A stretch of 20,825 bases of DNA from an uncultured Blautia sp. (GTDB lineage: Bacteria > Bacillota > Clostridia > Lachnospirales > Lachnospiraceae). Position 1 is the stretch's first letter. Each line of letters begins with the position of its first letter. The DNA is taken from contig CAKRMK010000046.1 in assembly GCA_934364795.1 (NCBI GenBank), positions 1 to 20,825 on the forward strand. Reading direction: 5' to 3'. This document shows positions 3,065-19,223 of this stretch, one piece after another. The notes beneath the pieces are model-generated. The model was not told the DNA's origin, searched no databases, and saw nothing but the letters and a program-made list of their open reading frames with translations. The translations under genes were made by a program, and so were the position numbers.

Positions 3065-3115
3065 ATGGAATATATAGCATGGAATATTGGCAGAGGAGAA
3101 AGTAATTATGAGTAG
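3065..3115 (+). CDS. 16-residue leader peptide overlapping the MATE start
   Basis: ATG at 3065 opens a short frame, MEYIAWNIGRGESNYE, ending with TAG at 3113-3115. It has a strong ribosome site (GGAGGT, about ten bases upstream), better placed than many full genes here. Its last codons overlap the MATE start codon at 3108 and its coding sequence contains the MATE ribosome site (GAGGAG, 3093-3098). Ribosomes ending here would be in position to restart on the MATE gene, so translational coupling or leader control is plausible. The peptide matches no family I recognise. A chance short frame is possible. Confidence 0.4.
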   Translation: MEYIAWNIGRGESNYE

Positions 3116-4487
3116 AAATGAAGAAGTAACAGCTTTGCAGGAAAATGAAATGGGGACGCTTCCCGTGGGAAAACTTTTACGAAAAATGGCCCTTCCATTG
3201 ATTTTTTCCATGTTTGTGCAGGTACTGTACGGTCTGGTAGACAGTATGTATGTGGCACAGATTGGTGATTCGGCACTTACGGCAATTTCCCTTTGTATGC
3301 CGGTGCAGTATCTGGTACTTGGTGTCGGGATCGGAATCGGTGTGGGTGTCAATTCGGTTCTGTCGAAGAAGCTGGGAGAAAAGGATGAACATGGTGTGAA
3401 TCGAGCTGCAGGAAACGGCTTTGTACTGGTATGGATCGTATCCATTCTCTTTATCATTATGGGGCTGTTTGCAATAGAACCGTTCTATCGGATACAGACA
3501 GATATTCCGGAAGTGCTTGATATGAGCATTTCCTATAGTCGGATTATCAGTATTATTTCTTTTGCGGCATTACATGAGGTACTTATGGAACGGCTTTTGT
3601 CAGCTACCGGAAAAGCAAACCTTACGATGATACCGATGCTGACAGGTGCGGTAACAAATATCATTCTTGATCCAATCATGATTTTTGGGTGGTTCGGATG
3701 CCCGGCCTTTGGTATTGCAGGTGCGGCTTATGCAACCGTTATCGCACAGGCAGTTGCTGCATTGGTTGCTTTGTCGTTGAATCTGAAATTCAATAAAGAT
3801 GTGAAGTTCGAAGCCGGTGGCTTCGTCCCGAATGGCGGTATTATTGCCGAAATTTTGAAAGTAGGAATCCCGGTTGCATTGTCACAAAGTCTGATTTCAG
3901 TACTTGCTTTTGGCATGAATAATATTCTGCTTTCTCTTTCAGCAGTAGCACCTGGGATATATGTCATTTATATTCGTTTGCAGAGCTTTGTAATTATGCC
4001 GGCAAGCGGTATGAGTACAGCGGGTATTTCTATCATTGCTTACAATTATGGTGCAGGAAATAAAGAGAGAATCATGGAAACTTTAAAAAAGAGCATTGTG
4101 GTAAATCTAATTGTTGCCGTTGTAGGTATGATAGTGTTTCTGGCGGTGCCGGAATTGCTGCTTGCAATGTTTAACGCCTCAGATGCTGTTTTGAAAATCG
4201 GTGTTCCGGCACTCCGCATTATTGCAGCTTCCCTGCTTTTGACTACTACAACACAGATTCTGACAGGTTTTTTGCAGGCGTTGGGACGTGGCACGGACAG
4301 CTTTGTCATTGCAATTACACAGGCAGTATTTCTTCTGCTTGCAGCGTGGCTATTGTCGCTGACAGGCAGTGCGGTATTGGTATGGCTGGCATTTCCGATT
4401 ATGGAGGTGCTTCGATTTATCATAGGAGTATTCCTTGTAAATAGAACATATAAAAATCAGATTATGAAATTGGAGGTAGCAGAATGA
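3108..4487 (+). CDS. MATE-family efflux transporter (first copy)
   Basis: A 459-residue inner-membrane exporter of the multidrug and toxic compound extrusion family, which exchanges organic compounds for Na+ or H+. About 12 hydrophobic segments are visible. The family signature near the N terminus is present (ALPLIFSMFVQVLYGLVDSMYVAQIG, about residues 28-53), as are the second-half helices after PNGGIIAEILKVGIPVALSQ. I chose ATG at 3108 because GAGGAG lies nine bases upstream; a TTG seven codons earlier is less likely. The gene ends in ATGA, overlapping the flavodoxin start by four bases. Its place beside TetR and redox genes suggests export of a toxic substrate or reduction product; the compound is unknown. 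Confidence 0.93.
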   Translation: MSRNEEVTALQENEMGTLPVGKLLRKMALPLIFSMFVQVLYGLVDSMYVAQIGDSALTAISLCMPVQYLVLGVGIGIGVGVNSVLSKKLGEKDEHGVNRAAGNGFVLVWIVSILFIIMGLFAIEPFYRIQTDIPEVLDMSISYSRIISIISFAALHEVLMERLLSATGKANLTMIPMLTGAVTNIILDPIMIFGWFGCPAFGIAGAAYATVIAQAVAALVALSLNLKFNKDVKFEAGGFVPNGGIIAEILKVGIPVALSQSLISVLAFGMNNILLSLSAVAPGIYVIYIRLQSFVIMPASGMSTAGISIIAYNYGAGNKERIMETLKKSIVVNLIVAVVGMIVFLAVPELLLAMFNASDAVLKIGVPALRIIAASLLLTTTTQILTGFLQALGRGTDSFVIAITQAVFLLLAAWLLSLTGSAVLVWLAFPIMEVLRFIIGVFLVNRTYKNQIMKLEVAE

Positions 4488-5008
4488 ACAAGAAAGTATT
4501 GATTGCGTATTTTTCCCATGAGGGAGAAGCTTATGCAGGAGGAAAAATTGTTACTCTTGAAATCGGTAATACAAGAGTAGCGGCTCAGATGATGGAGGAT
4601 ATGACAGGAGCTGATGTATTCCGTATTGAGACCGTAAAGCCTTATCCATATGACCACATGGAAACTGTGAAGCTTGCACAGAAGGAGCAGAAAGAAAATG
4701 CCAGACCGGAACTGAAAGGAAATGAGATCAATATAGAATCTTATGATACTATCATCCTTGGTTATCCGAATTGGTGGAACACTATGCCAATGGCTGTATT
4801 CTCGTTCCTGGAGAGCCATGATTTTGCTGGAAAAACGATTCTTCCACTCTGCACTCATGAGGGAAGTGGAATGGGACACAGTGAGGCCGACATCAAGGCA
4901 GTATGCCCGGATGCAAGAGTTGAAAGAGGTCTTGCAATCACTGGCTGCAAAGTAAGCAAGGCAGGAAAAAATATTGAAAAATGGCTTACCTCGGCGGGGC
5001 TAATGTAA
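4484..5008 (+). CDS. Flavodoxin, long-loop (Flavodoxin_4-like) type
   Basis: A 174-residue FMN-binding flavodoxin-fold protein, probably cytoplasmic. The first strand and phosphate loop read LIAYFSHEGEAY with the GNT element delayed to residues 28-30, a spacing typical of the Flavodoxin_4 group, not of short-chain flavodoxins. GYPNWWNTMP (93-102) and CTHEGSG (123-129) form the flavin-flanking loops. Members are usually electron carriers or NAD(P)H-dependent flavin or quinone reductases. The start overlaps the MATE stop (ATGA) behind GGAGGT, so the two are translationally coupled. The next gene is an AKR, a pairing repeated twice more in the window. The electron partner is not known. Confidence 0.92.
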   Translation: MNKKVLIAYFSHEGEAYAGGKIVTLEIGNTRVAAQMMEDMTGADVFRIETVKPYPYDHMETVKLAQKEQKENARPELKGNEINIESYDTIILGYPNWWNTMPMAVFSFLESHDFAGKTILPLCTHEGSGMGHSEADIKAVCPDARVERGLAITGCKVSKAGKNIEKWLTSAGLM

Positions 5009-5057
5009 CAAAGTACTTTATATAAACAACTAACATATAAAAATGGAGGAAAATAAC

Positions 5058-5912
5058 ATGAAACAGACTTATGTAACTTTGAATGATGGAAACAAAATCC
5101 CACAGTTTGGTCTTGGAGTTTATATGATTCCAGGTGACGATAACACGAAGGCAGCATGCCTGGAAGCATTTCGTGCAGGCTACCGCCATATAGACATCGC
5201 TCATGCCTATCAGAACGAGCGTGGTGTTGGAGCGGCTGTAAAAGAAAGTGGAATTCCACGTGAGGAAATCTGGATTACCACAAAACTGTGGCCAAGCGAG
5301 TATGGTGAAGGAAAAACAGCAGAGGCAATCGATAAAATGCTGTCCCGACTGGACACCGGCTACATCGACCTGCTTCTTCTGCATCAGCAGTTTGGTGATT
5401 ATATTGGGGCATGGAAGGATATGGAGAAAGCGGTTGCCGCAGGTAAGGTAAAATCCATTGGAATCAGTAATTTTGAGTCAGAGCGTTTGGAGGAGCTTCT
5501 TGATGCCGCAACAATCAAGCCGTCTGTCCTGCAGGTGGAGTGCCATCCGTATTATCAGCAGACACAGTTGAAAGAGCGAATTGCAAAATATGGGACAGTG
5601 ATCGAAAGCTGGTATCCGATCGGACATGGTGATAAAGATTTATTGAACGAGCCTATATTTACAGAGCTTGCAGAAAAATATGGCAAAAACAATGTGCAGA
5701 TCATCCTGCGTTGGCATATTCAGGAGGGAACGATCGTATTCCCGAAATCTACAAATCCGAAGCATATTCAGGACAATATCGACATTTTTGATTTTGAACT
5801 GACAGCGGAGGAAATGGAGCGTATCCGTGCTTTGGACAAGGGTATTCGCTTCTTCAACATGAGCCTTGAGGAGCAGGAGGCACATTTGAGTGGATTTACT
5901 CCTGCAGATTAA
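5058..5912 (+). CDS. Aldo-keto reductase, 2,5-diketogluconate reductase-like
   Basis: A 284-residue NAD(P)H-dependent carbonyl reductase with the TIM-barrel AKR fold. The catalytic tetrad is complete: Asp46 and Tyr51 (DIAHAYQNERGVG), Lys76 (TTKLWPSEYG) and His109 (LLLLHQQ). The substrate-loop motif QVECHPYYQQ and the cofactor loop FPKSTNPKH (Lys230, Ser231, His236) are present; the position usually held by Arg is His. ATG at 5058 has GGAGG nine bases upstream, preferred over ATG at 5043, which overlaps that site. It follows the flavodoxin by 49 bases and probably shares its transcript. The substrate is likely a small aldehyde, ketone or methylglyoxal-like carbonyl, but this is inferred from the family only. 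Confidence 0.94.
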   Translation: MKQTYVTLNDGNKIPQFGLGVYMIPGDDNTKAACLEAFRAGYRHIDIAHAYQNERGVGAAVKESGIPREEIWITTKLWPSEYGEGKTAEAIDKMLSRLDTGYIDLLLLHQQFGDYIGAWKDMEKAVAAGKVKSIGISNFESERLEELLDAATIKPSVLQVECHPYYQQTQLKERIAKYGTVIESWYPIGHGDKDLLNEPIFTELAEKYGKNNVQIILRWHIQEGTIVFPKSTNPKHIQDNIDIFDFELTAEEMERIRALDKGIRFFNMSLEEQEAHLSGFTPAD

Positions 5913-7793: not shown

Positions 7794-7889
7794 ACAGATT
7801 ACTTAATATCTATGATCGTAAACAAGGAAGATAAGCAGGAGCGTTTTGCCAGCTATTAAACATAAGCACATCGCAGAAAGGAAATGTAT

Positions 7890-8690
7890 ATGATTCATAA
7901 AAAAAGATATCTGTTCCTATTTTTGGGAATGACTCTTTCTCTTTTCCTGTATGCCTGTTCCGCATTATCTTTTACTGACAGAATCACTGTGTGTTTTGAC
8001 AAGGAGACAGAAATGCAAACAACTAAAATGACGGAAACTGATTCTTCTGAAAACTCGATTTTCAAATCCGATCATACAGATGCCGCCACCTTACTTTATA
8101 TGGGACAGGCAAGTATACGGATTGTTACGGCAGAGGGTAAGGTAATTTATATAGATCCCTATACAGGTGATTATACAATGCCGGCCGATCTGATTTTGGT
8201 TACGCATGGGCATTTTGATCACTGTGCGGTGGAAAAGGTTGAGAATCAAAACGCTGATTGTCAGATTATTACCCATAAGGAAGCTGTCGTAAACGGTGAA
8301 CATAAGTCATTTGATCTTGGCTATGTGAAAATTGAAGCTGTGGAGGCCGGATACAATAACTGGCACGATGTGAACGTGTGTGTCGGCTATATTTTGACTT
8401 TCAGTAACGGAAAATCCGTATATGTGACGGGTGATACATCCACAACAAAACAAATGCCACTTTTGGCAGATAAAAATATTGATTATGCCTTTTTCTGTTG
8501 TGACGGTGTGTTTAATATGGGGATTGAAGAAGCTGCTGAATGTGCAAAGGAAGTTGGTGCAAAGCATAATATTCCCTATCACAATACTACTGACAATACT
8601 GGGGAAATGTTTGACCGTTCACGTGCTGAGCAGTTTGACGCACCAAACCGTTTGATTGTATTTCCGGGCGAAGAACTGCTTCTAAAATAG
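7890..8690 (+). CDS. Lipoprotein with metallo-beta-lactamase fold (UlaG-like hydrolase)
   Basis: A 266-residue protein with an N-terminal lipoprotein signal: Lys-rich start, hydrophobic stretch at 7-20 and a lipobox ending at Cys23 (LYAC). A Thr/Ser/Asp-rich linker runs to about residue 65, followed by a metallo-beta-lactamase fold. HGHFDH (106-111) is the metal-binding motif, Asp182 (VTGDTST) bridges the metals, and His231 (PYHNTTD) is a likely third site. ATG at 7890 is preferred over 7884 because AGAAAGG then sits eight bases upstream. This points to a di-metal hydrolase on the outer face of the membrane, substrate unknown. A 96-base gap separates it from the AKR, so it may have its own promoter, although none is clear. 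Confidence 0.88.
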   Translation: MIHKKRYLFLFLGMTLSLFLYACSALSFTDRITVCFDKETEMQTTKMTETDSSENSIFKSDHTDAATLLYMGQASIRIVTAEGKVIYIDPYTGDYTMPADLILVTHGHFDHCAVEKVENQNADCQIITHKEAVVNGEHKSFDLGYVKIEAVEAGYNNWHDVNVCVGYILTFSNGKSVYVTGDTSTTKQMPLLADKNIDYAFFCCDGVFNMGIEEAAECAKEVGAKHNIPYHNTTDNTGEMFDRSRAEQFDAPNRLIVFPGEELLLK

Positions 8691-8701
8691 GCAATTAATA
8701 T

Positions 8702-8815
8702 ATGATGCACATTTCTCCTGAGATTGAAAAACAGTTGGCAACGATGCCTACAGGGAATCTGGCAGGGCTGGAATTTCTGAAAAAGGATGCAGCGTTTATC
8801 ACAGGAACAGAGTAG
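8702..8815 (+). pseudogene. Relic of an SDR C-terminus
   Basis: A 37-codon frame ends with TAG at 8813-8815. Its start, MMHISPEIEKQLATMPTG, and its end, DAAFITGTE, resemble the last section of an SDR, where a line such as FITGxxxLxDGG closes the protein (compare FITGADYLIDGG in the SDR at 5979). The catalytic part is missing, the segment between the two matches is too short for an intact SDR, and the expected DGG ending is cut off by the stop. The ribosome site is weak. It overlaps the 3' end of the convergent LysR gene by 17 bases. It is best read as a decayed fragment, although a small expressed peptide cannot be excluded. Confidence 0.5.
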
Positions 8816-9695
8816 TTTCCATTTTTTTTATTGCCCCGATAAATTTTTTTGTAGCTGAAGTAGGATTATTAGCATACATTAATCCATACGGCAGAGTGTA
8901 ATTTGTTTCAAGTGGAAGTGTCACAAGATTGTTGTGAATATCCGTATAGACTGGTTGCGTAATTAGCATATATCCGTTTACTTCACAAAGCGTAAAGGTA
9001 TCGACACCATAATATGGAGAATCTACAATCTGCACGGTTGGATAATGTTCTGTCACATCTTTGCGGAACGCATCAATTTCTTTGGACACGCCTTCGATAG
9101 GCATCACAAGATACTCACCATTCAAGTCTTGCATGGTGAGTTTTTTCATGCCTGCTAATCTATGATTTCTGGAAACAGCACAGCAAATTGGTGTGCGCTC
9201 CAATTCTAAAAACTGGCATAAACCGTTCCATCCGCCAGAACCATATATCCCCTCGAATAAATCAAACTGTACACCCAATGCAGAAAATACTTCGCCTCTG
9301 TTCTGGTACTCTATCATGGGTAGAATCTCAATTTTCAATTCCGGGTGTTTTTCGCTGACTCGAGTCCAAAGATCAGGCAGCAAACGGCACTTATATAGCA
9401 AGGAAGTACCAATCCGAACGGTAGTCTCCGAAGATTCTGCCAACCTTTGTGCTTTGTTTAGTGCGTCCTGCGATAATCGGATGATGGTTTTTGCATCCTC
9501 ATACAAAGAGCGTCCGGCAGGTGTCAGTTTTACGCCATGATTGGAACGGCTAAATAGTTTAAAGCCGCAACTTGCTTCCAACAAATTGATCTGTTGGATA
9601 ATAGCCGGTGCGGAAATATACATTGCTTCTGCGGCCTTGCTAAAACTACCGGAATCCGCCACTTTGATAAAGGCATCTAACTGTGGATTATACAT
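8799..9695 (-). CDS. LysR-family transcriptional regulator (second copy)
   Basis: A 298-residue LysR-type regulator. The N-terminal winged helix-turn-helix spans about residues 3-60 (GSFSKAAEAMYISAPAIIQQINLLE), followed by the linker helix and a two-lobed effector domain beginning near TTVRIGTSLLY. The start is preceded by AGGAGGAGA. It diverges from the eight-gene run beginning at 9807 and is the obvious candidate activator for it. It differs clearly from the LysR at 1330, so the two are not a recent duplication. Its 3' end overlaps the SDR relic on the other strand, with no terminator visible between them. The inducer is unknown. Confidence 0.94.
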   Translation of the reverse strand: MYNPQLDAFIKVADSGSFSKAAEAMYISAPAIIQQINLLEASCGFKLFSRSNHGVKLTPAGRSLYEDAKTIIRLSQDALNKAQRLAESSETTVRIGTSLLYKCRLLPDLWTRVSEKHPELKIEILPMIEYQNRGEVFSALGVQFDLFEGIYGSGGWNGLCQFLELERTPICCAVSRNHRLAGMKKLTMQDLNGEYLVMPIEGVSKEIDAFRKDVTEHYPTVQIVDSPYYGVDTFTLCEVNGYMLITQPVYTDIHNNLVTLPLETNYTLPYGLMYANNPTSATKKFIGAIKKMETTLFL

Positions 9696-9727: not shown

Positions 9728-9769
9728 CGCCATGATAACATATCCGAACTTCCGAAGCAAGATAGGTAC

Positions 9770-9778
9770 TGCTAAAAT
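9770..9778 (+). promoter_or_regulatory. Extended -10 promoter of the eight-gene operon
   Basis: TGCTAAAAT is a TGn-extended -10 box. At 17 bases upstream the sequence is TTCCGA (9750-9755), a poor -35, as expected for a promoter that needs an activator. Transcription would start near 9785, just before the ribosome site at 9794-9800. Confidence 0.4.
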
Positions 9779-9806
9779 AAGTTCAGAACAGAAATGGAGG
9801 CATAAC

Positions 9807-10919
9807 ATGAAAAAACTTGGATTTGGACTGATGCGGTTGCCGCTGCTGGATCAGGACGATTATAGCAGCATAGACATTGAGCGTTTCAAGAAAATGGCGG
9901 ATACCTTTCTTGCAAACGGATTCACCTATTTTGACACAGCGTATCCCTATCATAGAGGAAACAGTGAAGTGGCATTTCGTGAAGCAGTTGCCAAACGGTA
10001 TCCACGATCAGCTTATACAATCACAGATAAGCTGTCACTGTTTATGATCCAGGATGAAAAAGAAATACCGGGATTTTTTGAAAAGCAGTTGGAGCAGCTT
10101 GGTGTAGACTATGTGGATTATTACTGGCTTCACGGACTTAATGCTCAGACCTACCGACAGGCAGAAGAAATGCACGCTTTTGATTTTATCAAAACTCAAA
10201 ATGCCGAAGGCAAAATTCATCATATCGGGCTGTCTTTCCATGATAAGGCGGAACTTTTAGATGAGATTCTTACGGCGCATCCCGAACTGGAATATGTGCA
10301 GATTCAGCTTAATTACCTGGACTGGAACGATCCGGCGGTAGAGTCCCGTCTTTGTTATGAAGTGGCGGTGAAGCACCATAAGCCAGTCATCGTAATGGAG
10401 CCTGTGAAGGGAGGCAGTCTGATTCAAATACCTGTTTCGGCGAAAGACCTTTTTGAAAAAGCACATCCAGACCTTTCCGTTGCATCATGGGCGATTCGTT
10501 TTGCTGCTTCGCCCTCTCATGTGATGATGGTTCTTTCCGGCATGAGTGACGAGCAGCAGGTGGCAGATAATATCAGCTACATGAAGGACTTCCAGCCTCT
10601 TGACAAAAAAGAACAGCAGGTGGTGGATCAGGCCGTGAAAATAATCCGTGCTTCGGAGGTCATTCCATGTACGGCCTGCCGTTATTGCACGGATACCTGT
10701 CCTAAAAAAATCGCTATCCCGGACTACTTTGCGCTTTATAACAATATGAAGCGGTCTGGTGATACAGTCAGGCTTACCACACAGACCTATTACAGCAATC
10801 TGACGCAGAACCATGGAAAGGCATCCGAATGTCTGAAATGTGGGAAATGCGAAAAACTTTGTCCGCAGCATTTGCCGATACGCGCCTTTTTGCAGGATGT
10901 TGCTGCGGCATTGGAATGA
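9807..10919 (+). CDS. Aldo-keto reductase with two C-terminal 4Fe-4S motifs
   Basis: A 370-residue protein with an AKR barrel (about 1-275) followed by a ferredoxin-like tail. The barrel tetrad is Asp43, Tyr48 (YFDTAYPYH), Lys75 (ITDKLS) and His109 (YWLHG). The tail carries two CxxCxxCxxxCP motifs: Cys288, 291, 294, 298 and Cys342, 345, 348, 352, enough for two 4Fe-4S clusters. This architecture is known in anaerobes and suggests electron flow between a carbonyl/NAD(P)H site and an iron-sulfur or flavin partner. The start at 9807 has TGGAGG six bases upstream; a 25-residue upstream extension lacks a ribosome site. It is the first gene of the run to 17311, and the next gene begins 14 bases later. 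Substrate unknown. Confidence 0.93.
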   Translation: MKKLGFGLMRLPLLDQDDYSSIDIERFKKMADTFLANGFTYFDTAYPYHRGNSEVAFREAVAKRYPRSAYTITDKLSLFMIQDEKEIPGFFEKQLEQLGVDYVDYYWLHGLNAQTYRQAEEMHAFDFIKTQNAEGKIHHIGLSFHDKAELLDEILTAHPELEYVQIQLNYLDWNDPAVESRLCYEVAVKHHKPVIVMEPVKGGSLIQIPVSAKDLFEKAHPDLSVASWAIRFAASPSHVMMVLSGMSDEQQVADNISYMKDFQPLDKKEQQVVDQAVKIIRASEVIPCTACRYCTDTCPKKIAIPDYFALYNNMKRSGDTVRLTTQTYYSNLTQNHGKASECLKCGKCEKLCPQHLPIRAFLQDVAAALE

Positions 10920-10933
10920 AGGAGGAAAATCAA

Positions 10934-11791
10934 ATGGAGACTATAACACTCAATAACGGTATAAAAATGCCGGTTGCCGGATTCGGCGTATTTCAGATTC
11001 AAAACCAGACGCAATGTGAGCAGTGTGTCGTGGATGCCGTTTATGCCGGTTATCGGCTGATCGACACCGCTGCGGTTTACGGAAATGAAGCTGCTGTTGG
11101 TCAGGCGGTTCATCGCTGTGGCGTTGCCAGAGAGGAACTGTTTCTTACCAGCAAGCTGTGGGTACAGGACGCAGGATATGACGCTGCAAAGAAAGCAATC
11201 GATGCCTCTCTCAAAAATCTGCAAACGGACTATCTCGACCTGTATCTGATTCATCGTCCATTTGGGGATTATTATGGTGCATGGCGGGCGATGGAAGAAG
11301 CAGTTGATGCAGGGAAGCTCCGGGCTATTGGTCTTTCCAATTTCGACCCGGCGCGAGTTATGGATTTGACCTTAAATAACCGTATCGCACCTGCTGTCGA
11401 TCAAGTGGAGTGCCATCCATTCTATCAGCAGGAAAGCACACGCCGCTTTTTACAGGAACAGGGTATCGTCATGGAGGCATGGGCATCCTTTGCAGAAGGA
11501 AAAAAGCAGATTTTCCAAAATGAAATGTTGCTGGAAATTGGAGCAAAGTATGGAAAAAGTCCTGCACAGGTGATCCTACGCTGGAATATTCAGAGAGGAA
11601 TCGTACCGCTGGCAAAGTCTGTACATCGCGAACGAATGGAACAAAATCTGGATGTCTTTGATTTTACGCTGTCAGATGAAGATATGCTTGCCATCAGCCG
11701 GTTGGACGAAGGTGTTACGCTGTTTGGCAAAAACGAGGACCCTGCCTATGCCAAAATGATAAACAGTGTAAAAATCCACGGAGAACAATGA
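10934..11791 (+). CDS. Aldo-keto reductase, NADPH-type
   Basis: A 285-residue AKR of the 2,5-diketogluconate reductase-like group. Asp44, Tyr49 (LIDTAAVYGNEAAVG), Lys74 (LTSKLW) and His107 (YLIHRPF) complete the tetrad, and VDQVECHPFYQQ is the substrate-loop motif. The cofactor loop LAKSVHRER keeps both Lys228 and Arg234, so NADPH is the likely donor. This is the most canonical cofactor loop among the intact short AKRs here. In the second half WASFAEGKK replaces the WYPIGHG seen in its neighbours, which may alter the substrate pocket. The start has GGAGG nine bases upstream. Its stop overlaps the MATE start by four bases, so the reductase and exporter are translationally coupled. Confidence 0.95.
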   Translation: METITLNNGIKMPVAGFGVFQIQNQTQCEQCVVDAVYAGYRLIDTAAVYGNEAAVGQAVHRCGVAREELFLTSKLWVQDAGYDAAKKAIDASLKNLQTDYLDLYLIHRPFGDYYGAWRAMEEAVDAGKLRAIGLSNFDPARVMDLTLNNRIAPAVDQVECHPFYQQESTRRFLQEQGIVMEAWASFAEGKKQIFQNEMLLEIGAKYGKSPAQVILRWNIQRGIVPLAKSVHRERMEQNLDVFDFTLSDEDMLAISRLDEGVTLFGKNEDPAYAKMINSVKIHGEQ

Positions 11792-13176
11792 TCATGCAAA
11801 GAACATCGGAAGAAAAAACAGAACTTTTTGAGCGGACACCGATCCGGCAGGCGGCATTGACATTGATCGTCCCAACGGTCATCAGCCAGCTTGTCATGTT
11901 GGTTTATAACATGGCAGATACCTGGTTCATCGGTCAGACCGGCGATCCACATCAGGTGGCGGCTGTCACAGTTACTTACCCGATCTTTATGATGATGAAT
12001 GCTCTTGCCAATCTGTTTGGTATCGGCGGCAGCAGTCTTATTTCCCGTATGCTTGGCAGCGGAGAACAGGAAAAGACCGGTGCGGTTGCAGCGTTTTCCC
12101 TGTGGGCGGCGGGCGGCGTCACTCTCATTTATTCCATTGTATGCCTATTGTTTGATGGTGCGCTGCTTACTGTGCTTGGAACCGATGCAGGAACATTTGG
12201 ATACGCAAAGGATTATCTTTTCTGGACCGTGATTGTTGGCGGGCTTCCTACGGTACTGAACCTTGTGCTTGCCAATCTGATCCGGGCACAGGGCGAAGCG
12301 AGAACAGCCAGTATTGGAATGTCCCTCGGCGGAATTTTGAATGTGTTCCTTGATCCGGTGTTCATTTTCCTGCTTGGTATGGGCGTAGCCGGTGCAGCCC
12401 TGGCAACCTGTTTATCCAACACAGCATCGTTGATATTCCTGCTCAGGTATACGATCCGTCACCGAAAAGAGAGCCTTGTGAAAATCCCTCTTGTACCAAA
12501 ACAGATTGAACCTGTCGCACATCGGGATATTTACTCCATAGGAACACCGGCAGCTTTGCAGATCATTTTGGCTGCGGTTTCCAATGCTGTCCTGCTGCGG
12601 CTGATGTCCGGCTATGCGGTTGCGGCAATTTCGGGAATGGGTGTCATGCAAAAAGTGGAAAGCATTCCATTTCAGGCAATTATGGGAATCTCCAATGGTA
12701 TTTTGCCGCTGGTAGCCTACAATTATGCTTCCGGCAACCGGGAACGGATGCGGCAGGCAGTACGCTATGCGATCAGCCGTGGACTTGCCTGCGCCTGTGT
12801 TTTCTTTGTACTATGTGAAGTTTTTGCCCCGGCCATCGTTCGATTCTTTATCAACGATGCGGCATCCATCACCTATGGTGCAGCATTTGTCCGTTTACGG
12901 ATTTTGGCACTGCCGTTTATCACAACAGAGTTTATGCTGATTGCTGTTTTTCAGGGCATTGGTGGCGCAAAGCAGGCATTCTTTCTTTCTTTGTTCCGAA
13001 AGGGCATTTTGGATTTGCCGTTGATGATTCTGGCGAATGTTCTTCTGCCAATGTATGGACTGATGCTGGTACAGCCGTTTATGGAATTGAGCGGTTGTAT
13101 GATCGCTCTTGTATTATATGGTCATATCCATAAACAGCCACAAATTGCAATGAAAAAATATCCGGAGGAAATCTAA
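11788..13176 (+). CDS. MATE-family efflux transporter (second copy)
   Basis: A 462-residue, roughly 12-helix MATE exporter in the cytoplasmic membrane. The first helix reads AALTLIVPTVISQLVMLVYNMADTWFIGQTG (about residues 13-43), matching the family signature, and the second half begins near DIYSIGTPAALQIILAAVSNAV. It differs from the first MATE throughout, so the two are separate acquisitions or an old duplication. ATG at 11788 overlaps the AKR stop (ATGATC); an ATG two codons later is possible. Its stop overlaps the next start by one base (TAATG). In context it probably exports a substrate or product of the adjacent AKRs; specificity cannot be read. Confidence 0.94.
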   Translation: MIMQRTSEEKTELFERTPIRQAALTLIVPTVISQLVMLVYNMADTWFIGQTGDPHQVAAVTVTYPIFMMMNALANLFGIGGSSLISRMLGSGEQEKTGAVAAFSLWAAGGVTLIYSIVCLLFDGALLTVLGTDAGTFGYAKDYLFWTVIVGGLPTVLNLVLANLIRAQGEARTASIGMSLGGILNVFLDPVFIFLLGMGVAGAALATCLSNTASLIFLLRYTIRHRKESLVKIPLVPKQIEPVAHRDIYSIGTPAALQIILAAVSNAVLLRLMSGYAVAAISGMGVMQKVESIPFQAIMGISNGILPLVAYNYASGNRERMRQAVRYAISRGLACACVFFVLCEVFAPAIVRFFINDAASITYGAAFVRLRILALPFITTEFMLIAVFQGIGGAKQAFFLSLFRKGILDLPLMILANVLLPMYGLMLVQPFMELSGCMIALVLYGHIHKQPQIAMKKYPEEI

Positions 13177-14204
13177 TGAAAAAACTTATTTATTTTCTAA
13201 TTTTTATTATAATGATTTTTTCGCTGGTAGCTTGCGGTACACGGGCAGATGCGGAAGCACCGTCAGGAGATACATCAACATTTCAGCAAAATCCTGAAAG
13301 TACAGAATCTTCTGAGGAAACGCAAAACAGAGAAGAAAACTCTGTAAAAACTGATTTGCCTGAAGGTACGGCTGTATTTGATTTAGAAAACGGAACGGTA
13401 ATGCTGAACAGTGGTTATGAAATGCCGATCATCGGTCTTGGTACGTACCGTTTGTCTGACAGTGAATGTGAAAACTCTGTCTATCATGCACTTCTTTATG
13501 GCGGACGTCTTATTGACACTGCCCGTATTTATGGAAATGAAGCAGCTGTAGGAAGAGGAATCCAGAGAGCGATCGATGAAGGAATCTGTACAAGGGAAGA
13601 AATCTTTGTTACTACGAAGATGTGGATCGATGATTATGATGATGGAGATGCAGCCATTGATGCTTCGTTGGAACGTCTCGGAGTGGATTATATTGACCTG
13701 ATGATCCTGCATCATTCGCAGCCAGGCAATGATGTGGAAGCATATCAGGCGATGGAGCGGGCAGTTGCAGATGGAAAGCTGCACTCTATTGGTCTTTCAA
13801 ACTTTTATGAGCCGGAAGATTTCGACCGGCTGGTAGAGGCAACCACCATTCCCCCTGCGTTGCTGCAAAATGAAACTCACCTATACCACCAAAGCAGGGA
13901 GATGAAAGAACATATTGCACAGTATGGAACTGTGATGGAAAGCTGGTTTCCACTCGGTGGACGTGGGCAGACGCAGACTCTTTTTAATGATCCTACGGTT
14001 GTGTCGATTGCCAAAGCTCACGATAAGACCTCAGCCCAGATTATCCTGAGATGGCATTTACAGGCAGGAAACATTGCAATCCCCGGTTCCAGTAATCCGG
14101 ATCACATTTTAGAGAACCTGTCCATTTTTGATTTTTCTCTTTCCGATGAGGAAATGAAACAGCTGACTGATTTGGACAAAAATGAGCGCTTTGGCGATTG
14201 GTAA
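13176..14204 (+). CDS. Lipoprotein aldo-keto reductase (extracytoplasmic)
   Basis: A 342-residue protein with a lipoprotein signal (residues 1-19, lipobox LVAC, lipidated Cys20), a Ser/Thr/Glu-rich linker (about 21-65) and a full AKR domain (about 67-342). The tetrad is intact: Asp114, Tyr119 (LIDTARIYGNEAAVG), Lys148 (VTTKMW) and His179. The usual QVECHP motif is altered to QNETHL. In the cofactor loop IPGSSNPDH, Gly304 and His310 replace the Lys and Arg that bind the NADPH phosphate. An AKR anchored outside the membrane has no obvious NAD(P)H supply, so it may use another donor, bind tightly held cofactor, or act as a binding protein. It starts one base into the MATE stop and is 12 bases before the lipoprotein flavodoxin. 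Confidence 0.92.
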   Translation: MKKLIYFLIFIIMIFSLVACGTRADAEAPSGDTSTFQQNPESTESSEETQNREENSVKTDLPEGTAVFDLENGTVMLNSGYEMPIIGLGTYRLSDSECENSVYHALLYGGRLIDTARIYGNEAAVGRGIQRAIDEGICTREEIFVTTKMWIDDYDDGDAAIDASLERLGVDYIDLMILHHSQPGNDVEAYQAMERAVADGKLHSIGLSNFYEPEDFDRLVEATTIPPALLQNETHLYHQSREMKEHIAQYGTVMESWFPLGGRGQTQTLFNDPTVVSIAKAHDKTSAQIILRWHLQAGNIAIPGSSNPDHILENLSIFDFSLSDEEMKQLTDLDKNERFGDW

Positions 14205-14216
14205 AGGAGGAATACA

Positions 14217-14954
14217 ATGAAAAGATTTTTTGCATTGATTTTAGCGGTCACTATGATGCTGACTCTTGCAGCCTGTGGAAACTCTGCCCCGGCAGAATCT
14301 GCTTCGGAGGGTGACAGCGAAACAGCGAATAGTACAAATGTGCAGACAGAACCGACTGCTCCTGTTGATGATACGGAGCCAGACAGTTCGCAGGCGGATG
14401 ATACTGCTCAAGCTGAACAAACAGAAGGAGGCAGTCATATGTTAGTAGCTTATTTTTCTCTTGCAGGGGAACAGTACGGTGTTGGTGTGATTGAAGAAGG
14501 AAACACCAGTATTATTGCTCACATGATTGCAGAGCAGACTGGAGCTGATCTGTTTGAAATTGAGGCTGTTACACCATATCCTACTTCACACAGCGAATTG
14601 CTGGAGGTTTCTCAGCAGGAGATGTCGGATAATGCCCGCCCGGAGATTGCCGGTACTGTGGACAACATGGATGATTATGACACGATTTTTATCGGCTATC
14701 CTAACTGGTGGGGAGATATGCCAATGATCGTCTACAACTTTTTGGAAAGCTATGACCTGTCTGGCAAAACGATTGTTCCGTTCTGTACCCACGGTGGAAG
14801 CGGTCTTTCCAATACCGAATCCACGATTGCCGACATTACGGGCGGCACGATGAAGGATGGCTTTGCAATTCCCGGTACGACTGCTCAGAATGACCGGGAT
14901 ACAGCCAGAAGCGAAGTCACAGAATGGCTGAAGGAAGGTGGCTTTGTTGAGTAA
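14217..14954 (+). CDS. Lipoprotein flavodoxin (extracytoplasmic)
   Basis: A 245-residue protein: lipoprotein signal (1-19, lipobox LAAC, Cys20), an acidic Ser/Thr/Gln linker (about 21-73) and a complete Flavodoxin_4-like domain (about 75-245). The domain has the delayed phosphate loop YFSLAGEQYGVGVIEEGNT (GNT at 95-97), GYPNWWGDMP (160-169) and CTHGGSG (190-196), closely paralleling the cytoplasmic flavodoxin at 4484. FMN binding on the outer face of the membrane is expected, with a role as a tethered electron carrier. GGAGG lies upstream of ATG 14217. A second ribosome site and ATG occur inside the frame at the exact domain boundary. Its end overlaps the next gene by 17 bases. Confidence 0.93.
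   Translation: MKRFFALILAVTMMLTLAACGNSAPAESASEGDSETANSTNVQTEPTAPVDDTEPDSSQADDTAQAEQTEGGSHMLVAYFSLAGEQYGVGVIEEGNTSIIAHMIAEQTGADLFEIEAVTPYPTSHSELLEVSQQEMSDNARPEIAGTVDNMDDYDTIFIGYPNWWGDMPMIVYNFLESYDLSGKTIVPFCTHGGSGLSNTESTIADITGGTMKDGFAIPGTTAQNDRDTARSEVTEWLKEGGFVE
14425..14441 (+). promoter_or_regulatory. Internal ribosome site and ATG at the flavodoxin domain boundary
   Basis: AAGGAGG (14425-14431) is followed seven bases later by ATG (14439-14441), in frame with the lipoprotein flavodoxin at Met75, directly before the first strand LVAYFS. Starting here would give a 171-residue cytoplasmic flavodoxin close in length to the 174-residue one at 4484. Either a second product is made, or this is the leftover start of the gene to which the leader was fused. 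Confidence 0.45.
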
Positions 14955-15936
14955 CAGATATAGGACGCTCGCTATCATGTTACTGGTTGTGGGGATGATT
15001 GCATCCCTTGCAGCCTGCGGCAACGCAGAGCGAATAAATTCTTCTGACTCGGAAAACACATCAACAGTCGCTGCGGAACCTGCACAGACAGATAATGCCC
15101 AAAACAGTACAGGCGGCAAGACGGCGGCAGAGCAAAACGTAATTAAACTGGCATTTGGAGATACCGTTATGACCGCGGTGCTTGATGATAGCGAAACAAG
15201 CAGGGCTTTCATAAGAATGCTGCCGCTTACTCTTACCATGAACCGATATGCCGACCGGGAATATTATGCAGCACTTGGTGAATTGCCGGAAAACGGAGCT
15301 GCCATTGATGATTTTGAAAATGGAGATGTGACCTATTACATCGATGGAAAATCCCTCGCAATTTTCTTCGGCAATGCGGATACGTCCTCTCAGGATGGGT
15401 TGATCCGCATGGGACGGATTACCTCGGATTTGAGTCTGTTTGATACAGTTGGCGAGAGTGAGGAGGTAACAATCTCTCTTTTGGAAAGTGAGGCGGATAT
15501 GACAGATTTTGATTTTTTAATTTTCAACAATGTAGAAATTATCGGTATAAATGTATCTGAATTGAGTGCAGAAGAACAGGCTGTCCTTTATCAGCAGGCA
15601 AGATACTGTCAGGCTATGACCGAAGCTGATACAGAAACTATGATGGAGATCACATCGCCGGATATGATTTTCACCCACATGAGTGGAAGACAGCAGACAA
15701 GAGCTGAATACTTTGCAGATATAGAGGACGGTGATCTTCAATACTTTACGATTGGCATTGAGAATCCGGTAGTCAACATCAGCGATAACTATGCATCGGT
15801 GTCTTATATATCTGTTTTGAACGCAAATGCCTACGGAGCCAGAGGTACTTATCGAATTGACGGAATCCACTGGTATGAGAAACAGGGCGAAAACTGGATT
15901 GCGTGCAATGCACCGGAACAGGAACGTGGTAGATAA
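14938..15936 (+). CDS. Lipoprotein with cyclophilin-like and NTF2-like domains
   Basis: A protein of up to 332 residues with a lipoprotein signal (lipobox LAAC, Cys27 from the GTG start) and a Ser/Thr/Asn/Gln linker to about 66. Residues 69-182 match the bacterial cyclophilin-like fold, with the pattern FGDTVMTAVLDDSETSRAF, then MLPLTLTM, then a YYIDGKSLAIFFG strand. Residues about 212-325 look like an NTF2/SnoaL-like domain (ARYCQAMTEADTETMMEI to GIHWYEKQGENWIACNA). The start is uncertain: GTG at 14938 is too close to the ribosome site AAGGAAGG, so TTG at 14944 or 14947 is possible. It overlaps the flavodoxin end. The combination suggests a surface binding or small-molecule-handling protein; no enzymatic role can be assigned. 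Confidence 0.82.
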   Translation: MALLSNRYRTLAIMLLVVGMIASLAACGNAERINSSDSENTSTVAAEPAQTDNAQNSTGGKTAAEQNVIKLAFGDTVMTAVLDDSETSRAFIRMLPLTLTMNRYADREYYAALGELPENGAAIDDFENGDVTYYIDGKSLAIFFGNADTSSQDGLIRMGRITSDLSLFDTVGESEEVTISLLESEADMTDFDFLIFNNVEIIGINVSELSAEEQAVLYQQARYCQAMTEADTETMMEITSPDMIFTHMSGRQQTRAEYFADIEDGDLQYFTIGIENPVVNISDNYASVSYISVLNANAYGARGTYRIDGIHWYEKQGENWIACNAPEQERGR

Positions 15937-15938
15937 AG

Positions 15939-16613
15939 ATGAATGCGACAAGGCTGAAGGTTATTGGCATTGTCTCAATGACTATAGATCATATTGGCTA
16001 CTTCCTGTTTCCGCAAATGACAGTCCTGCATATTATCGGGCGGCTGGCATATCCGATTTTTGCGTACATGATTGCAGAGGGATGTAGATATACAAGAAAC
16101 AAAGTGCGATATCTCTGCACAGTGCTTGCAATCGCTGGTGTCTGTTCAGCCGTTACATATTTTGCGGAAAGAAGCCTATATCAATCCATCTTCACAACAT
16201 TTTCCTGTGCGATGATCTTGATTTTTGCACTCACTGCAGCAAAAGAAGCCACTGAAAGAGCAGAGAAAATCTTTTGGGGCGTTTGCACAATGATGCTTGT
16301 GTTCCTGTATTTTGCTGTTTTCCAGCTTTGGATGATTCCGGGACTTGAAACGGACTACGGGTTTCTCGGTATCATAACGCCTGTTCTTGTGTGGCTGGGA
16401 CGAAGCAAAGCGGAGAAATTGGCAGGTCTTACCATCGGATTGTGTTTACTGTCAGCGGAGCTTGGAACGGTTCAGTTTTTCTCATTGGCTGCTGTGATTT
16501 TACTGTACTTCTACAATGGAGAGCGAGGAAATCACAGCTTGAAGTGGGTTTTCTACGCATATTATCCACTTCATATTGCCGTACTGTATGGTATTTCACA
16601 GATTGTTGGATAG
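15939..16613 (+). CDS. TraX-family integral membrane protein
   Basis: A 224-residue polytopic membrane protein matching the TraX family, with the N-terminal signature IGIVSMTIDHIGYFLFP (9-25) and IGRLAYPIFAYMIAEGCRYT (33-52). Around seven hydrophobic segments are visible. In F plasmids TraX acetylates pilin, and the family belongs to the broader membrane acyltransferases, but chromosomal Firmicutes members are not linked to conjugation and no conjugation gene is visible here. It follows the cyclophilin-like lipoprotein by two bases and precedes the DUF4405 gene by 11, so it belongs to the same transcript. A role in acylating an envelope component or product is possible but speculative. Confidence 0.87.
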   Translation: MNATRLKVIGIVSMTIDHIGYFLFPQMTVLHIIGRLAYPIFAYMIAEGCRYTRNKVRYLCTVLAIAGVCSAVTYFAERSLYQSIFTTFSCAMILIFALTAAKEATERAEKIFWGVCTMMLVFLYFAVFQLWMIPGLETDYGFLGIITPVLVWLGRSKAEKLAGLTIGLCLLSAELGTVQFFSLAAVILLYFYNGERGNHSLKWVFYAYYPLHIAVLYGISQIVG

Positions 16614-16624
16614 AGGTGACTGAT

Positions 16625-17311
16625 ATGAAGAAAAAACTGCGTATTATAATTGACAGTGGAATGGTGTTGCTGTTGCCAATGTTAATGGCGTATTCTCTGG
16701 TGGGAGAGGCAACTCACGAATATCTCGGCATTGGAATGTTTCTGTTATTTATTGCCCACCATATTTTAAACATTGCATGGTGGAAACACCTGTTTCATGG
16801 AAGGTATACTCCACTCCGCATCGTAGGAATGACGGTCAATTTTATACTTGCAATCATTATGCTGGCTTTGCCGATCAGCGGTATGATACTGTCCCGGCAT
16901 GTGTTCCGGTTTCTGCATCTTGGCGGAACAGCGACAGCCAGAACAATTCATCTGCTAGCATCTTATTGGGGCCTGGTATTGATGAGTTTTCATGCAGGTA
17001 TGCATGGTCATGTGATGATAGGAATGATTCGAAAAAATATCAAAATGCAGCATCCATCTAAAATCAGAATATGGAGCCTGCGAATGCTTACTTTGTTATC
17101 AGCAATTTGTGGCATTTATGCTTTTCATAAAAACAAAATCAGCTCATATCTATTTTTGCGGACACGGTTTGTATTTATTGACTTTTCTCAACCGGTAGTG
17201 TGGACGCTTATAGAGTATTTTTGTGTGAGCATTTTGTTTATGATCATAGGATATGTTTTTTGGCAGGTGTGTACATGGCATACCTCCAAAACTATTTTTA
17301 AAACATATTGA
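16625..17311 (+). CDS. DUF4405 membrane protein, flavinylation-associated cytochrome type
   Basis: A 228-residue membrane protein with about five hydrophobic segments. Histidines sit at helix positions suited to haem b binding: His31, His45/His46 (FIAHHILNIAWW), His109 (RTIHLLASYWG) and His123/His127 (SFHAGMHGH). This pattern fits DUF4405, described from genomic surveys as a cytochrome b-like partner in extracytosolic flavin-based electron transfer. The start at 16625 follows GAGGTGACTGAT; an upstream in-frame ATG inside the TraX gene is unlikely. It is the last gene of the run, and its stop overlaps the -35 box of the next promoter. It could pass electrons across the membrane to the tethered flavodoxin; no ApbE or FMN-binding domain gene is visible here. 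Confidence 0.8.
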   Translation: MKKKLRIIIDSGMVLLLPMLMAYSLVGEATHEYLGIGMFLLFIAHHILNIAWWKHLFHGRYTPLRIVGMTVNFILAIIMLALPISGMILSRHVFRFLHLGGTATARTIHLLASYWGLVLMSFHAGMHGHVMIGMIRKNIKMQHPSKIRIWSLRMLTLLSAICGIYAFHKNKISSYLFLRTRFVFIDFSQPVVWTLIEYFCVSILFMIIGYVFWQVCTWHTSKTIFKTY

Positions 17312-17338: not shown

Positions 17339-17395
17339 TAGCATGGCATATGAAATGATGTGAGTAAAGAAATGAAAACAAGGAGGAACATTATC

Positions 17396-17812
17396 ATGAA
17401 ATTTGAAAATAAGGATACTTTTGAACTGCACAATGCATTTGGAATGGGTGAGCCTAATACAGCGTATGCAAAATATTTTATTGGTGACTCATTCTTGAAC
17501 CCCCTCACAGATCCAAAGTGTGGGTTATTTGCTGCAAATGTGACTTTTGCACCGGGTTGCCGTAATAACTGGCACATCCATCATGCAAAAAGCGGAGGAG
17601 GACAATTGCTTATTTGCACAGCCGGAGAAGGGTGGTATCAGGAAGAAGGAAAGGATGCTGTCAGTCTGTGTGAAGGAAGCGTTATAATGATTCCTGCTAA
17701 TGTCAAGCACTGGCATGGAGCGAAAAAAGATAGCTGGTTTTCACATATTGCTGTTGAGGTGCCCGGTGAGGATTGTGTGAACGAATGGTGCGAACCGGTA
17801 TCTGATGATTAA
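17396..17812 (+). CDS. Cupin-domain protein
   Basis: A 138-residue single-domain cupin. Motif 1 reads PGCRNNWHIHHAKSGGGQLL, with the HxH pair but no metal-ligand Glu at the usual place. Motif 2 reads GSVIMIPANVKHWHGA, supplying a further His. The N-terminal segment (FTG-like NPLTDPKCGLFAANVTFAPG) resembles cupins related to hydroxynitrile lyase and carboxymuconolactone decarboxylase-associated proteins, which usually bind Mn or Fe. ATG at 17396 is preceded by AAGGAGG nine bases upstream, so an ATG-like start upstream is not needed. It is the first gene after the MerR-type promoter and is followed 43 bases later by an AKR. Reaction unknown. Confidence 0.9.
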   Translation: MKFENKDTFELHNAFGMGEPNTAYAKYFIGDSFLNPLTDPKCGLFAANVTFAPGCRNNWHIHHAKSGGGQLLICTAGEGWYQEEGKDAVSLCEGSVIMIPANVKHWHGAKKDSWFSHIAVEVPGEDCVNEWCEPVSDD

Positions 17813-17855: not shown

Positions 17856-18719
17856 ATGTATCAGGAAATGAAGAAATTAAGTAATGGAATAGAAATCCCG
17901 GTGCTGGCTCTTGGCACATGGTTTATAGATGATGATAAGGTGGCAGAGGCTGTAAAGACTGCTGTTAAGATGGGCTATCGCCATATAGATACAGCACAGG
18001 CTTATGGAAATGAACACGGCGTAGGTGAGGGAATCCGCACTTGTGGTGTTCCAAGAGAGCAGATCTTTGTGACATCAAAGGTTGCAGCAGAATACAAGAC
18101 TTACGAGGAAGCTGCGGCAAGTATAGACAGAAGTCTTGCCAATATGGGACTTGATTATATTGACATGATGATCATTCACAGTCCTCAGCCTTGGGATAAG
18201 GTAAATCAGAGTGAAGATCGTTATGTGGAGGGAAATCGCGCAGCATGGAGAGCATTGGAGGATGCCTACAAGGCCGGAAAATTACGTGCCATCGGTGTGT
18301 CCAATTTCCTGCCGGAAGATATTGAAAACCTGTGGGAAACTGCAGAAATCAAACCTATGGTTAATCAGGTGCTTTGCCATATTTCTAATTTGCCTCTGGA
18401 GCTGATTGATTATTGTCAGAAGAAGGGCATAGTGATGGAAGCGTATTCTCCGGTTGCCCATGGTGAGGCACTTAAGAACAAGGCAATAGCGGATATGGCA
18501 GAAAAGTATGGAGTCACGATTCCACAGATGTGCATCCGCTTTGATATTCAGCTTGGAATGATCGTTTTACCGAAGACTGCAAATCCGGAGCATATGAAAG
18601 CGAATGCGGATGTTGATTTTACAATTTCAGATGAGGACATGGAAATTCTCAAGCATGTGGATAAAATTAAGGATTATGGCAAACACAGCATTTTCCCTGT
18701 ATTTGGAGGCAAGATGTAA
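17856..18719 (+). CDS. Aldo-keto reductase with divergent substrate loop
   Basis: A 287-residue AKR with tetrad Asp45, Tyr50 (HIDTAQAYGNEHGVG), Lys75 (VTSKVAAEY) and His108 (MIIHSPQ). After the catalytic His it has a longer polar segment (WDKVNQSEDRYVEGNRAAW, about 113-131) than its neighbours. The usual QVECHPYYQQ is replaced by QVLCHISNLP, so the substrate pocket probably differs. The cofactor loop is LPKTANPEH (Lys240, Thr241, His246), intermediate between NADPH and NADH patterns. TGGAGG lies nine bases upstream of the start. It ends directly at the flavodoxin start (TAAATG), indicating coupled translation and the third AKR-flavodoxin pair of the window. Confidence 0.94.
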   Translation: MYQEMKKLSNGIEIPVLALGTWFIDDDKVAEAVKTAVKMGYRHIDTAQAYGNEHGVGEGIRTCGVPREQIFVTSKVAAEYKTYEEAAASIDRSLANMGLDYIDMMIIHSPQPWDKVNQSEDRYVEGNRAAWRALEDAYKAGKLRAIGVSNFLPEDIENLWETAEIKPMVNQVLCHISNLPLELIDYCQKKGIVMEAYSPVAHGEALKNKAIADMAEKYGVTIPQMCIRFDIQLGMIVLPKTANPEHMKANADVDFTISDEDMEILKHVDKIKDYGKHSIFPVFGGKM

Positions 18720-19223
18720 ATGAAAAGAGTATTAACCGTTTATTATTCATGGTCAAATGGAAACACAGAAAGAATTGCAAAGCTGCTGCAGAAAGAAATT
18801 GGTGGAGATATCGTCAGAATCGATACGATTACTCCATATGAAGGCAGTTACGAAGATGTGGTAAATCAGGGGCAGGAAGAAGTAAATCGTGGATATGAAC
18901 CTGAGATTAGGCCACTGGGCGTCAATATTTCTGATTATGATGTGATTGCGGTTGGAACACCTACATGGTGGTACACCATGGCTCCTGCAGTACGCACATT
19001 TCTGCATACAGAAAGCTTTGCCGAGAAGACGGTGATTCCATTTATGACAAACGCCGGCTGGCCGGGAAAGGTGATCAAAGATATGAAGACTGCCTGTAAA
19101 GGCGCAGATATCAAAGGTGAGATGGAGATTCAGTTTGATTCTACCGGCGGAAGCAGATTAGAAACTTCAATGGAAGACATTACAAAATGGATCCAGAATG
19201 TTAAGAAGATTATCAATGACTAA
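18720..19223 (+). CDS. Flavodoxin
   Basis: A 167-residue FMN-binding flavodoxin-fold protein. Here the phosphate loop is compact, YYSWSNGNTERIA (8-20), unlike the two Flavodoxin_4-type proteins with a delayed GNT. GTPTWWYTMAPAVRTFL forms the second flavin loop and PFMTNAGWPGKV the third. It is likely a cytoplasmic electron carrier or flavin-dependent reductase. ATG follows the AKR stop with no gap and uses GGAGG (18704-18708), placed inside the end of the AKR gene. The acetyltransferase begins 14 bases after its stop. The pairing with an AKR suggests shared substrates or electron exchange, which the sequence does not prove. Confidence 0.93.
   Translation: MKRVLTVYYSWSNGNTERIAKLLQKEIGGDIVRIDTITPYEGSYEDVVNQGQEEVNRGYEPEIRPLGVNISDYDVIAVGTPTWWYTMAPAVRTFLHTESFAEKTVIPFMTNAGWPGKVIKDMKTACKGADIKGEMEIQFDSTGGSRLETSMEDITKWIQNVKKIIND

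Follow-up and report, generated by a model that had tools for sequence, protein, structure and literature searches.

How can an aldo-keto reductase (AKR) operate outside the cell? The question is raised by a 20,825-nucleotide stretch of DNA from an uncultured Blautia sp. (contig CAKRMK010000046.1; hereafter, the window), in which five consecutive genes at 13176..17311 encode envelope proteins, the first being an AKR that opens with a lipoprotein signal. AKRs are normally cytoplasmic because they need NAD(P)H, which is generally not expected to be freely available on the outside of a bacterium. A clade of exported AKRs with intact active sites is a cofactor puzzle, to which the flavodoxin fusions reported here offer a direct answer. 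We propose, at a probability of roughly 0.55, that the products of the operon carry electrons across the membrane along a wire ending in an outside-facing carbonyl reductase.

The original prediction described these five genes as tightly spaced and as encoding three lipoproteins, a TraX-like protein and a histidine-rich DUF4405 protein, and all open reading frames (ORFs), junctions and Pfam families were confirmed. All lie on the forward strand: the AKR, termed lipoAKR (13176..14204; PF00248, 5e-44), a Flavodoxin_4 lipoprotein, termed lipoFld (14217..14954; PF12682, 8e-31; nearest solved structure 3klb), a cyclophilin-like lipoprotein that was found to contain DUF4440 as well (14938..15936; PF18050, 2e-27; DUF4440, 4e-13), a TraX-family membrane protein (15939..16613; PF05857, 1e-25) and a six-helix DUF4405 membrane protein starting with ATG (16625..17311; PF14358, 3e-9). 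The upstream MATE transporter gene shares 1 base with lipoAKR, and the following junctions are a gap of 12 bases, an overlap of 17 and gaps of 2 and 11. Lipoprotein signals open lipoAKR (FSLVAC-G), lipoFld (TLAAC-G) and the cyclophilin-like protein (SLAAC-G). ORFs were taken from a simple gene caller, and start codons, export and lipoboxes were judged by regular expressions, without a signal-peptide program; the window lipoboxes were read from the sequence, and lipoprotein processing is predicted.

The exported AKR clade

Among the best 120 of 7993 lipoAKR homologues, 112 match the lipobox expression, so the lipobox is conserved, and PLGGRG or PFGGRG occurs in all 120, the former being part of the window signature (PLGGRG, IPGS). 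In a 64-row AKR tree, in which one gene was entered twice (as loci L045 and L065), one clade (96/92) unites 44 of the 45 exported rows, and the sole exported row outside it, the AKR of locus L038, sits on an unresolved fork.

Every one of the 43 exported AKR domains compared has the same catalytic tetrad, D/Y/K/H, and the same residues at the S-N, Q and W positions, which we take to hold the nicotinamide in known AKRs. The Lys and Arg that presumably hold the 2′-phosphate of NADPH in NADPH-dependent AKRs are absent from all of them, the coenzyme-loop Lys being replaced by Gly and the later Arg position by His in 43/43. This pattern fits an exported AKR that would still use nicotinamide, as NAD(H) rather than NADP(H), held in a different manner. 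The GGRG stretch belongs to the loop that follows the stacking Trp. It is absent from 16 of 17 compared cytosolic-like AKRs, the exception (L064) being a mis-started piece of an exported-type AKR; over all loci, and L064 apart, GGRG occurs in 21/21 AKRs whose domain starts after residue 40 and in 0/19 others. The coenzyme-loop Gly is also found in 6 of the 17 cytosolic-like AKRs, the mis-started L064 being one of the six.

The Tat pathway exports folded, cofactor-loaded proteins. Tat-like signals were observed on the flavodoxin–AKR fusion of L070 and on the homologue P0283, and TatC was found in one of the ten genomes tested, namely that of L070. Export with a bound cofactor is therefore plausible in the L070 lineage.

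The DUF4405 protein and its exported flavodoxin partner

The window DUF4405 protein scores 37.6 bits against PF14358 (cut-off 26.7). Its His31, His45, His109 and His123 form two pairs spaced 14 residues apart, and all four are invariant in an alignment of 26 sequences (A3, whose numbering is one lower); the protein is predicted to be a di-haem b cytochrome. Haem b has been shown in a related DUF4405 protein, according to the part of that report considered here (PMC11334425). A structure model built from 26 more varied sequences reached a predicted local distance difference test score (pLDDT) of 87 and a predicted template modelling score of 0.85; an earlier model from closely related rows only was unusable (pLDDT 51).

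Homologues of the window DUF4405 protein in one-per-species genomes gave 21 anchored loci (31–50% identity in the best segment), mostly from Clostridia and also from bins or records named Paenibacillaceae, Planctomycetia and Deltaproteobacteria. An exported Flavodoxin_4, export being judged by the position of the domain start in the ORF, lies on the same strand within 3 kb in 17 of these 21 loci and within 7 kb in 19; no exported Flavodoxin_4 was found in the other two, L008 and L021.

A sample chosen independently of flavodoxin was obtained by searching 391 Clostridia genomes with PF14358, which gave 36 matches in 31 genomes; 35 of these loci were analysed as L022–L056, and the remaining one is L003 of the anchored set. 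Twenty of the 35 contain a window-type DUF4405, defined as at least 150 bits with our own DUF4405 profile, and 18 of these 20 have an exported Flavodoxin_4 on the same strand within 3 kb (in 13/20 it is fused or no more than 500 bp away). L044 and L051, which have none at that distance, lie near contig ends. Among seven weaker DUF4405 proteins (60–150 bits), two have an exported Flavodoxin_4 nearby (L041 and L050), and the remaining eight loci were left out as having no ORF that reaches 60 bits. The chance expectation for 20 loci is about 0.16, from 40 Flavodoxin_4 per 34.5 Mb in ten other genomes, so the clustering of DUF4405 with Flavodoxin_4 is beyond chance.

Several variations on this pair were observed. 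Locus L005 encodes an 87-residue 4Fe–4S protein (10653-10916; Pfam) that overlaps the end of DUF4405, and ORFs similar to it, by BLAST to an iron–sulfur (Fe–S) AKR only, occur in L008, L011 and L020; such a 4Fe–4S protein beside DUF4405 is a candidate cytosolic electron donor. L029 and L032 encode a divergent DUF4405 type with a long C-terminal tail bearing CTGCxxxCSLLxPQC motifs (one in L029, two in L032), and there is no exported flavodoxin in either locus. An origin of the system from a mobile element was rejected, since DUF4405 has no match in phages and no relative in viral contigs, and the matches of the cyclophilin-like protein to plasmids are weak and partial, covering at most 54% of the query among the 20 of 50 records listed.

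Linkage of the exported AKR to flavodoxin and DUF4405

In the same 391 Clostridia, 21 exported AKRs were found in 17 genomes at E 1e-80 (loci L038 and L063–L080). Seven of the 21 are fused to Flavodoxin_4 and two to a cyclophilin-like domain. Five that are not flavodoxin-fused (L038, L064, L065, L078 and one in L073) have an exported Flavodoxin_4 no more than 3 kb away, so that 12 of 21 have an exported Flavodoxin_4 fused or nearby. In addition to the seven locus proteins, the flavodoxin–AKR fusion was Pfam-checked in P0268 and is given for P0258 by database Pfam; in both the start of the flavodoxin domain is missing. The fusions fall in two distant parts of the exported-AKR clade, one of which is the window's own subclade, where P0258 and P0268 sit.

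The other parts of the system are joined as well. By Pfam, a cyclophilin-like domain is fused to AKR in L066 and L078 and to Flavodoxin_4 in L022 and L031, and DUF4405, an FGE-sulfatase domain and Flavodoxin_4 form a single protein in L036 and in L010, the latter being cut at a contig end. L064 has Flavodoxin_4–DUF4440 and DUF4440–AKR in two adjoining frames. MATE and Flavodoxin_4 form a single ORF in L013, although the flavodoxin might instead be translated from a start inside this ORF and have a separate signal peptide. In L036 and L010, an extra hydrophobic segment (residues 235–253) follows the DUF4405 part after a positively charged stretch, and in L013 a hydrophobic segment likewise stands behind a positively charged stretch and ahead of the exported part, which would place the flavodoxin outside in all three. 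A crude scan counted seven hydrophobic segments in L010 and five in L036.

The original prediction would be refuted, by its own account, if no other genome kept the five genes together, and this applies to the full five-gene set, which was found nowhere else; however, a core of exported AKR, exported flavodoxin and DUF4405 recurs. In L065 (genome G389) the three genes keep that order on one strand, spaced by 15 and 1 bases, the DUF4405 gene being cut by the contig start, and in L038 (genome G265) the order is exported flavodoxin, DUF4405, exported AKR. At the level of whole genomes, window-type DUF4405 occurs in 18 of the 391 Clostridia and in 8 of the 17 with an exported AKR, where 0.78 would be expected (hypergeometric P 7e-8, which ignores kinship).

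Two further fusion types were noted in the loci. The FGE-sulfatase domain, a formylglycine-generating-enzyme-like domain, is fused to exported Flavodoxin_4 in L036 (6219-8384, reverse strand), L010 (1236-3248), L026 (11211-13010) and L043 (3301-5118, reverse strand), DUF4405 joining the fusion in the first two. L011 (5586-7013) and L035 (8501-9733) hold a DUF4440 lipoprotein with a prolyl-oligopeptidase-like part and a cyclophilin-like domain fused to an alpha/beta hydrolase.

Predicted absence of flavinylation

Covalent flavin has been shown on an ApbE-associated Flavodoxin_4, and extracytosolic flavodoxins are said to show signs of flavinylation, both in the part of the report considered here (PMC11334425). 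The β1–α1 loop of lipoFld, FSLAGEQYGVGVIEEGNT, lacks the flavinylation motif, which otherwise lies in an insertion at this place and is present in the Flavodoxin_4 loop of L001–L003, L007, L009, L012 and others. A broader form of the pattern is matched by 17 of 67 exported Flavodoxin_4 in the loci and not by the other 50, a strict form is matched by 11 of 66 distinct loops, and all seven flavodoxin–AKR fusions of the loci lack the motif.

No apbE gene was found in the window: tblastn with six ApbE proteins gave one 32-residue match (E 0.57), inside a LysR gene, and the Pfam results for the window genes contain no ApbE. Two loci out of the 74 analysed, L022 and L023, encode ApbE, and no ApbE match was found in 8 of the 17 exported-AKR genomes, which are drafts; G389 and G265, with the three-gene core, are among these eight. 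Flavinylation of the window flavodoxin by ApbE was rejected, since its loop lacks the motif and its neighbourhood lacks apbE. Judged by sequence, the window flavodoxin and most exported flavodoxins in the loci are exceptions to the published remark.

Proposed mechanism and alternative explanations

The proposed wire builds on features read directly from the DNA: the lipoprotein signals, the haem-ligand histidines, the tetrad and nicotinamide residues of the AKR, the neighbourhood and the fusions. We infer the direction of flow, the identity of the donor, the captive nicotinamide, flavin export by MATE and the substrate. A cytosolic low-potential carrier, either ferredoxin or an Fe–S protein, would reduce the di-haem b protein DUF4405, whose haem would carry electrons across the membrane to a non-covalent FMN in the tethered flavodoxin. 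The flavodoxin would then regenerate reduced nicotinamide that the tethered AKR keeps in its pocket and would use to reduce an extracytoplasmic aldehyde or ketone, and the overlapping MATE pump may provide the flavin outside. The path from DUF4405 haem to tethered flavodoxin to tethered AKR had been put forward in the original prediction, and it is supported by the neighbourhood, the fusions and the genome co-occurrence, the electron flow itself being predicted.

If the proposal is true, extracytosolic flavin-based electron transfer would extend from ApbE-flavinylated proteins to non-covalent flavodoxins, and gut Clostridia would have a means of reducing carbonyl compounds from the diet, from drugs or from the host at their surface. 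A more specific and rather doubtful version, held as tentative, is that the exported AKR keeps a captive, never-dissociating NAD(H), which is re-reduced in place by the DUF4405-fed flavodoxin, tethered or fused. The AKR would then run on nicotinamide outside the cell with no supply of free NAD(P)H, the GGRG/IPGS signature locking the cofactor in, and would represent a new, ApbE-free class of terminal reductase for extracytosolic flavin-based electron transfer.

Several observations weigh against the proposed wire. Nine of the ten exporting genomes tested lack TatC, so that a Sec-exported AKR would need to bind its nicotinamide outside. For nine of the 21 exported AKRs, an exported flavodoxin is neither fused nor present within 3 kb, DUF4405 stands in the analysed locus of just two of the 21, and a PF14358 match is missing from 9 of the 17 exported-AKR genomes; from the latter two counts, other electron donors must exist. 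In the window itself, the cyclophilin-like and TraX genes separate flavodoxin from DUF4405. In fold searches with the DUF4405 model, no structure reached E 0.001, cytochromes being listed without standing out.

The low counts for DUF4405 and nearby flavodoxin leave some room for an AKR that is independent of the wire, working with nicotinamide from its surroundings or as a binding protein, while DUF4405 and the exported flavodoxin serve another acceptor; we consider this unlikely, as nine flavodoxin–AKR fusions (seven in the loci, plus P0258 and P0268) and the co-occurrence of eight genomes against 0.78 expected tie the AKR to its partners. An equally unlikely arrangement is that electrons flow in the opposite direction, the tethered AKR oxidising an extracellular alcohol, whose electrons would travel inward via flavodoxin and DUF4405 until taken up by a cytosolic acceptor. 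AKRs are generally reversible, the sequence fixes no direction and the 4Fe–4S protein of L005 could accept as well as donate; however, flavodoxins are usually donors. Furthermore, the published DUF4405/flavinylation clusters have been interpreted as transferring electrons in the service of extracytosolic activities, in the part of that report considered here (PMC11334425).

Less probable still is that the AKR barrel gave up nicotinamide altogether and receives hydride straight from the flavodoxin FMN. The loss of the coenzyme-loop Lys in all 43 exported domains and the GGRG loop absent from the compared cytosolic AKRs would suit such a change, whereas the invariance of the S-N, Q and W positions, which hold nicotinamide in known AKRs, and the same Gly in six cytosolic-like AKRs (including the mis-started exported L064) speak against it. 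An ordinary ApbE-flavinylated Flavodoxin_4/DUF4405 system, as described by Huang et al. 2024, would share the two families and a similar neighbourhood, and 17 of the 67 exported Flavodoxin_4 do carry a flavinylation-like motif; with no motif in the window loop, no apbE in the window and no ApbE match in G389 and G265, we regard it as very improbable here. Finally, a chance run of envelope genes within one directon, for which TraX speaks in showing that an unrelated gene can be included, is hardly credible given the recurrent pairs, co-occurrence and fusions, and is contradicted for four of the five genes.

TraX, the cyclophilin-like lipoprotein and MATE

The idea that all five genes form one module holds for four, which belong to the recurrent system, and TraX apparently stands outside it. 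TraX was found in 0 of the 74 analysed loci with a one-sequence profile. It occurs in 18 of 28 genomes carrying module parts, in no case beside the module: it lies on other contigs, or more than 800 kb away where the contig is shared and positions are comparable, and G389 has no TraX. The window protein matches PF05857 and reaches 22.1 bits against TIGR02755, the F-type pilin acetylase model (cut-off 149.35). TraX was therefore rejected as part of the module, in view of the 74 loci and the 28 genomes without an adjoining match, and on sequence grounds it is judged to be an operon passenger.

The cyclophilin-like lipoprotein has profile matches to 2nnz and TM1367 (1zx8, 2ka0). Relatives of this protein and of lipoAKR occur in a cultured species, Dysosmobacter welbionis. 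The fusions tie the cyclophilin-like domain of this PF18050/DUF4440 protein to the system, where the lipoprotein would have an accessory role and might be a substrate or a docking partner. The MATE transporter (11788..13176, forward strand; Pfam) is a candidate flavin exporter because of the MATE–Flavodoxin_4 ORF in L013.

Neighbouring genes

As had been stated earlier, the five genes lie downstream of an Fe–S AKR, a second AKR and MATE, in the same directon with no real break, and the directon is longer than was then stated. It begins with a cytosolic AKR bearing C-terminal 4Fe–4S domains (9732..10919, start more likely 9807, forward strand; Pfam), itself a candidate cytosolic electron donor, followed by another cytosolic AKR (10934..11791, start inferred, forward strand; Pfam), and is preceded by a divergent LysR regulator (8799..9695, reverse strand). 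Relatives of this LysR (63% and 74%) occur in the lipoFld/DUF4405 loci L004 and L019, and L004 has the same head as the window, LysR followed by AKR/Fe–S. Promoter and terminator scans of the window stayed at shuffle level (20 vs. 19.1 and 8 vs. 8.3 in shuffles, respectively).

Within the 20.8 kb of the window (1-20635) there are as many as eight genes for AKRs, one of them truncated at the edge, together with three for Flavodoxin_4 proteins and two for MATE pumps. The exported lipoAKR/lipoFld pair is mirrored by two cytosolic flavodoxin–AKR pairs (4484-5912 and 17856-19223), and the second MATE gene overlaps the next cytosolic flavodoxin gene by 4 bases (3087-5008), comparable to MATE and lipoAKR. 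A lipoprotein of metallo-β-lactamase fold is encoded at 7884-8690; because its relative in L063 (6085-6873) stands immediately 5′ of an exported AKR, it may be a further exported partner. A cupin at 17387-17812 resembles (R)-mandelonitrile lyase (101 bits, under the cut-off of 140), and its relatives are present in several of the loci.

Comparison with known systems

Glucose-fructose oxidoreductase of Zymomonas is an extracytoplasmic enzyme whose nicotinamide stays permanently bound. It differs from the proposed AKR in having another fold and in regenerating its cofactor with a second sugar rather than with flavodoxin. Bfe of Shewanella is a MATE-family exporter of FAD that feeds outside flavoproteins, as proposed for the window MATE, the likeness being one of description only; the part of a Listeria flavin-export paper considered here mentions no MATE exporter. 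Relative to DkgA-type AKRs (1vp5, 1mzr), lipoAKR has the same barrel, catalytic tetrad and nicotinamide-site residues, whereas it is exported as a lipoprotein, carries GGRG, has IPGS instead of the common IPKS and has flavodoxin-fused relatives.

DUF4405 was placed in a cytochrome b family by profile search in 2015, as archaeal arCOG04002/DUF4405 (PMC5898192), and no exported flavodoxin partner or AKR is described in the part of that paper considered here. The closest system is that of Huang et al. 2024 (mSystems, PMC11334425), in which, in the part considered, extracytosolic Flavodoxin_4 likewise clusters with a four-histidine DUF4405 membrane haem protein; the window differs in lacking the flavinylation motif and apbE, and adds the exported AKR and the cyclophilin-like/DUF4440 lipoprotein. 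The main text of that paper contains no word starting with "aldo", the part considered of a 2021 eLife survey (PMC8238504) has no match for aldo-keto, cyclophilin or TraX, and nothing was found on an exported AKR or an AKR–flavodoxin couple among open-licence papers and titles. The original prediction knew of no described precedent for the combination; this does not stand for the flavodoxin–DUF4405 pair, which is published in flavinylated form, and stands, among the papers and titles searched, for the exported AKR. With the pair published and no exported-AKR paper found, what is known is therefore the DUF4405/flavodoxin wire, and what is new is its form without flavinylation and with an exported AKR as the proposed terminal enzyme.

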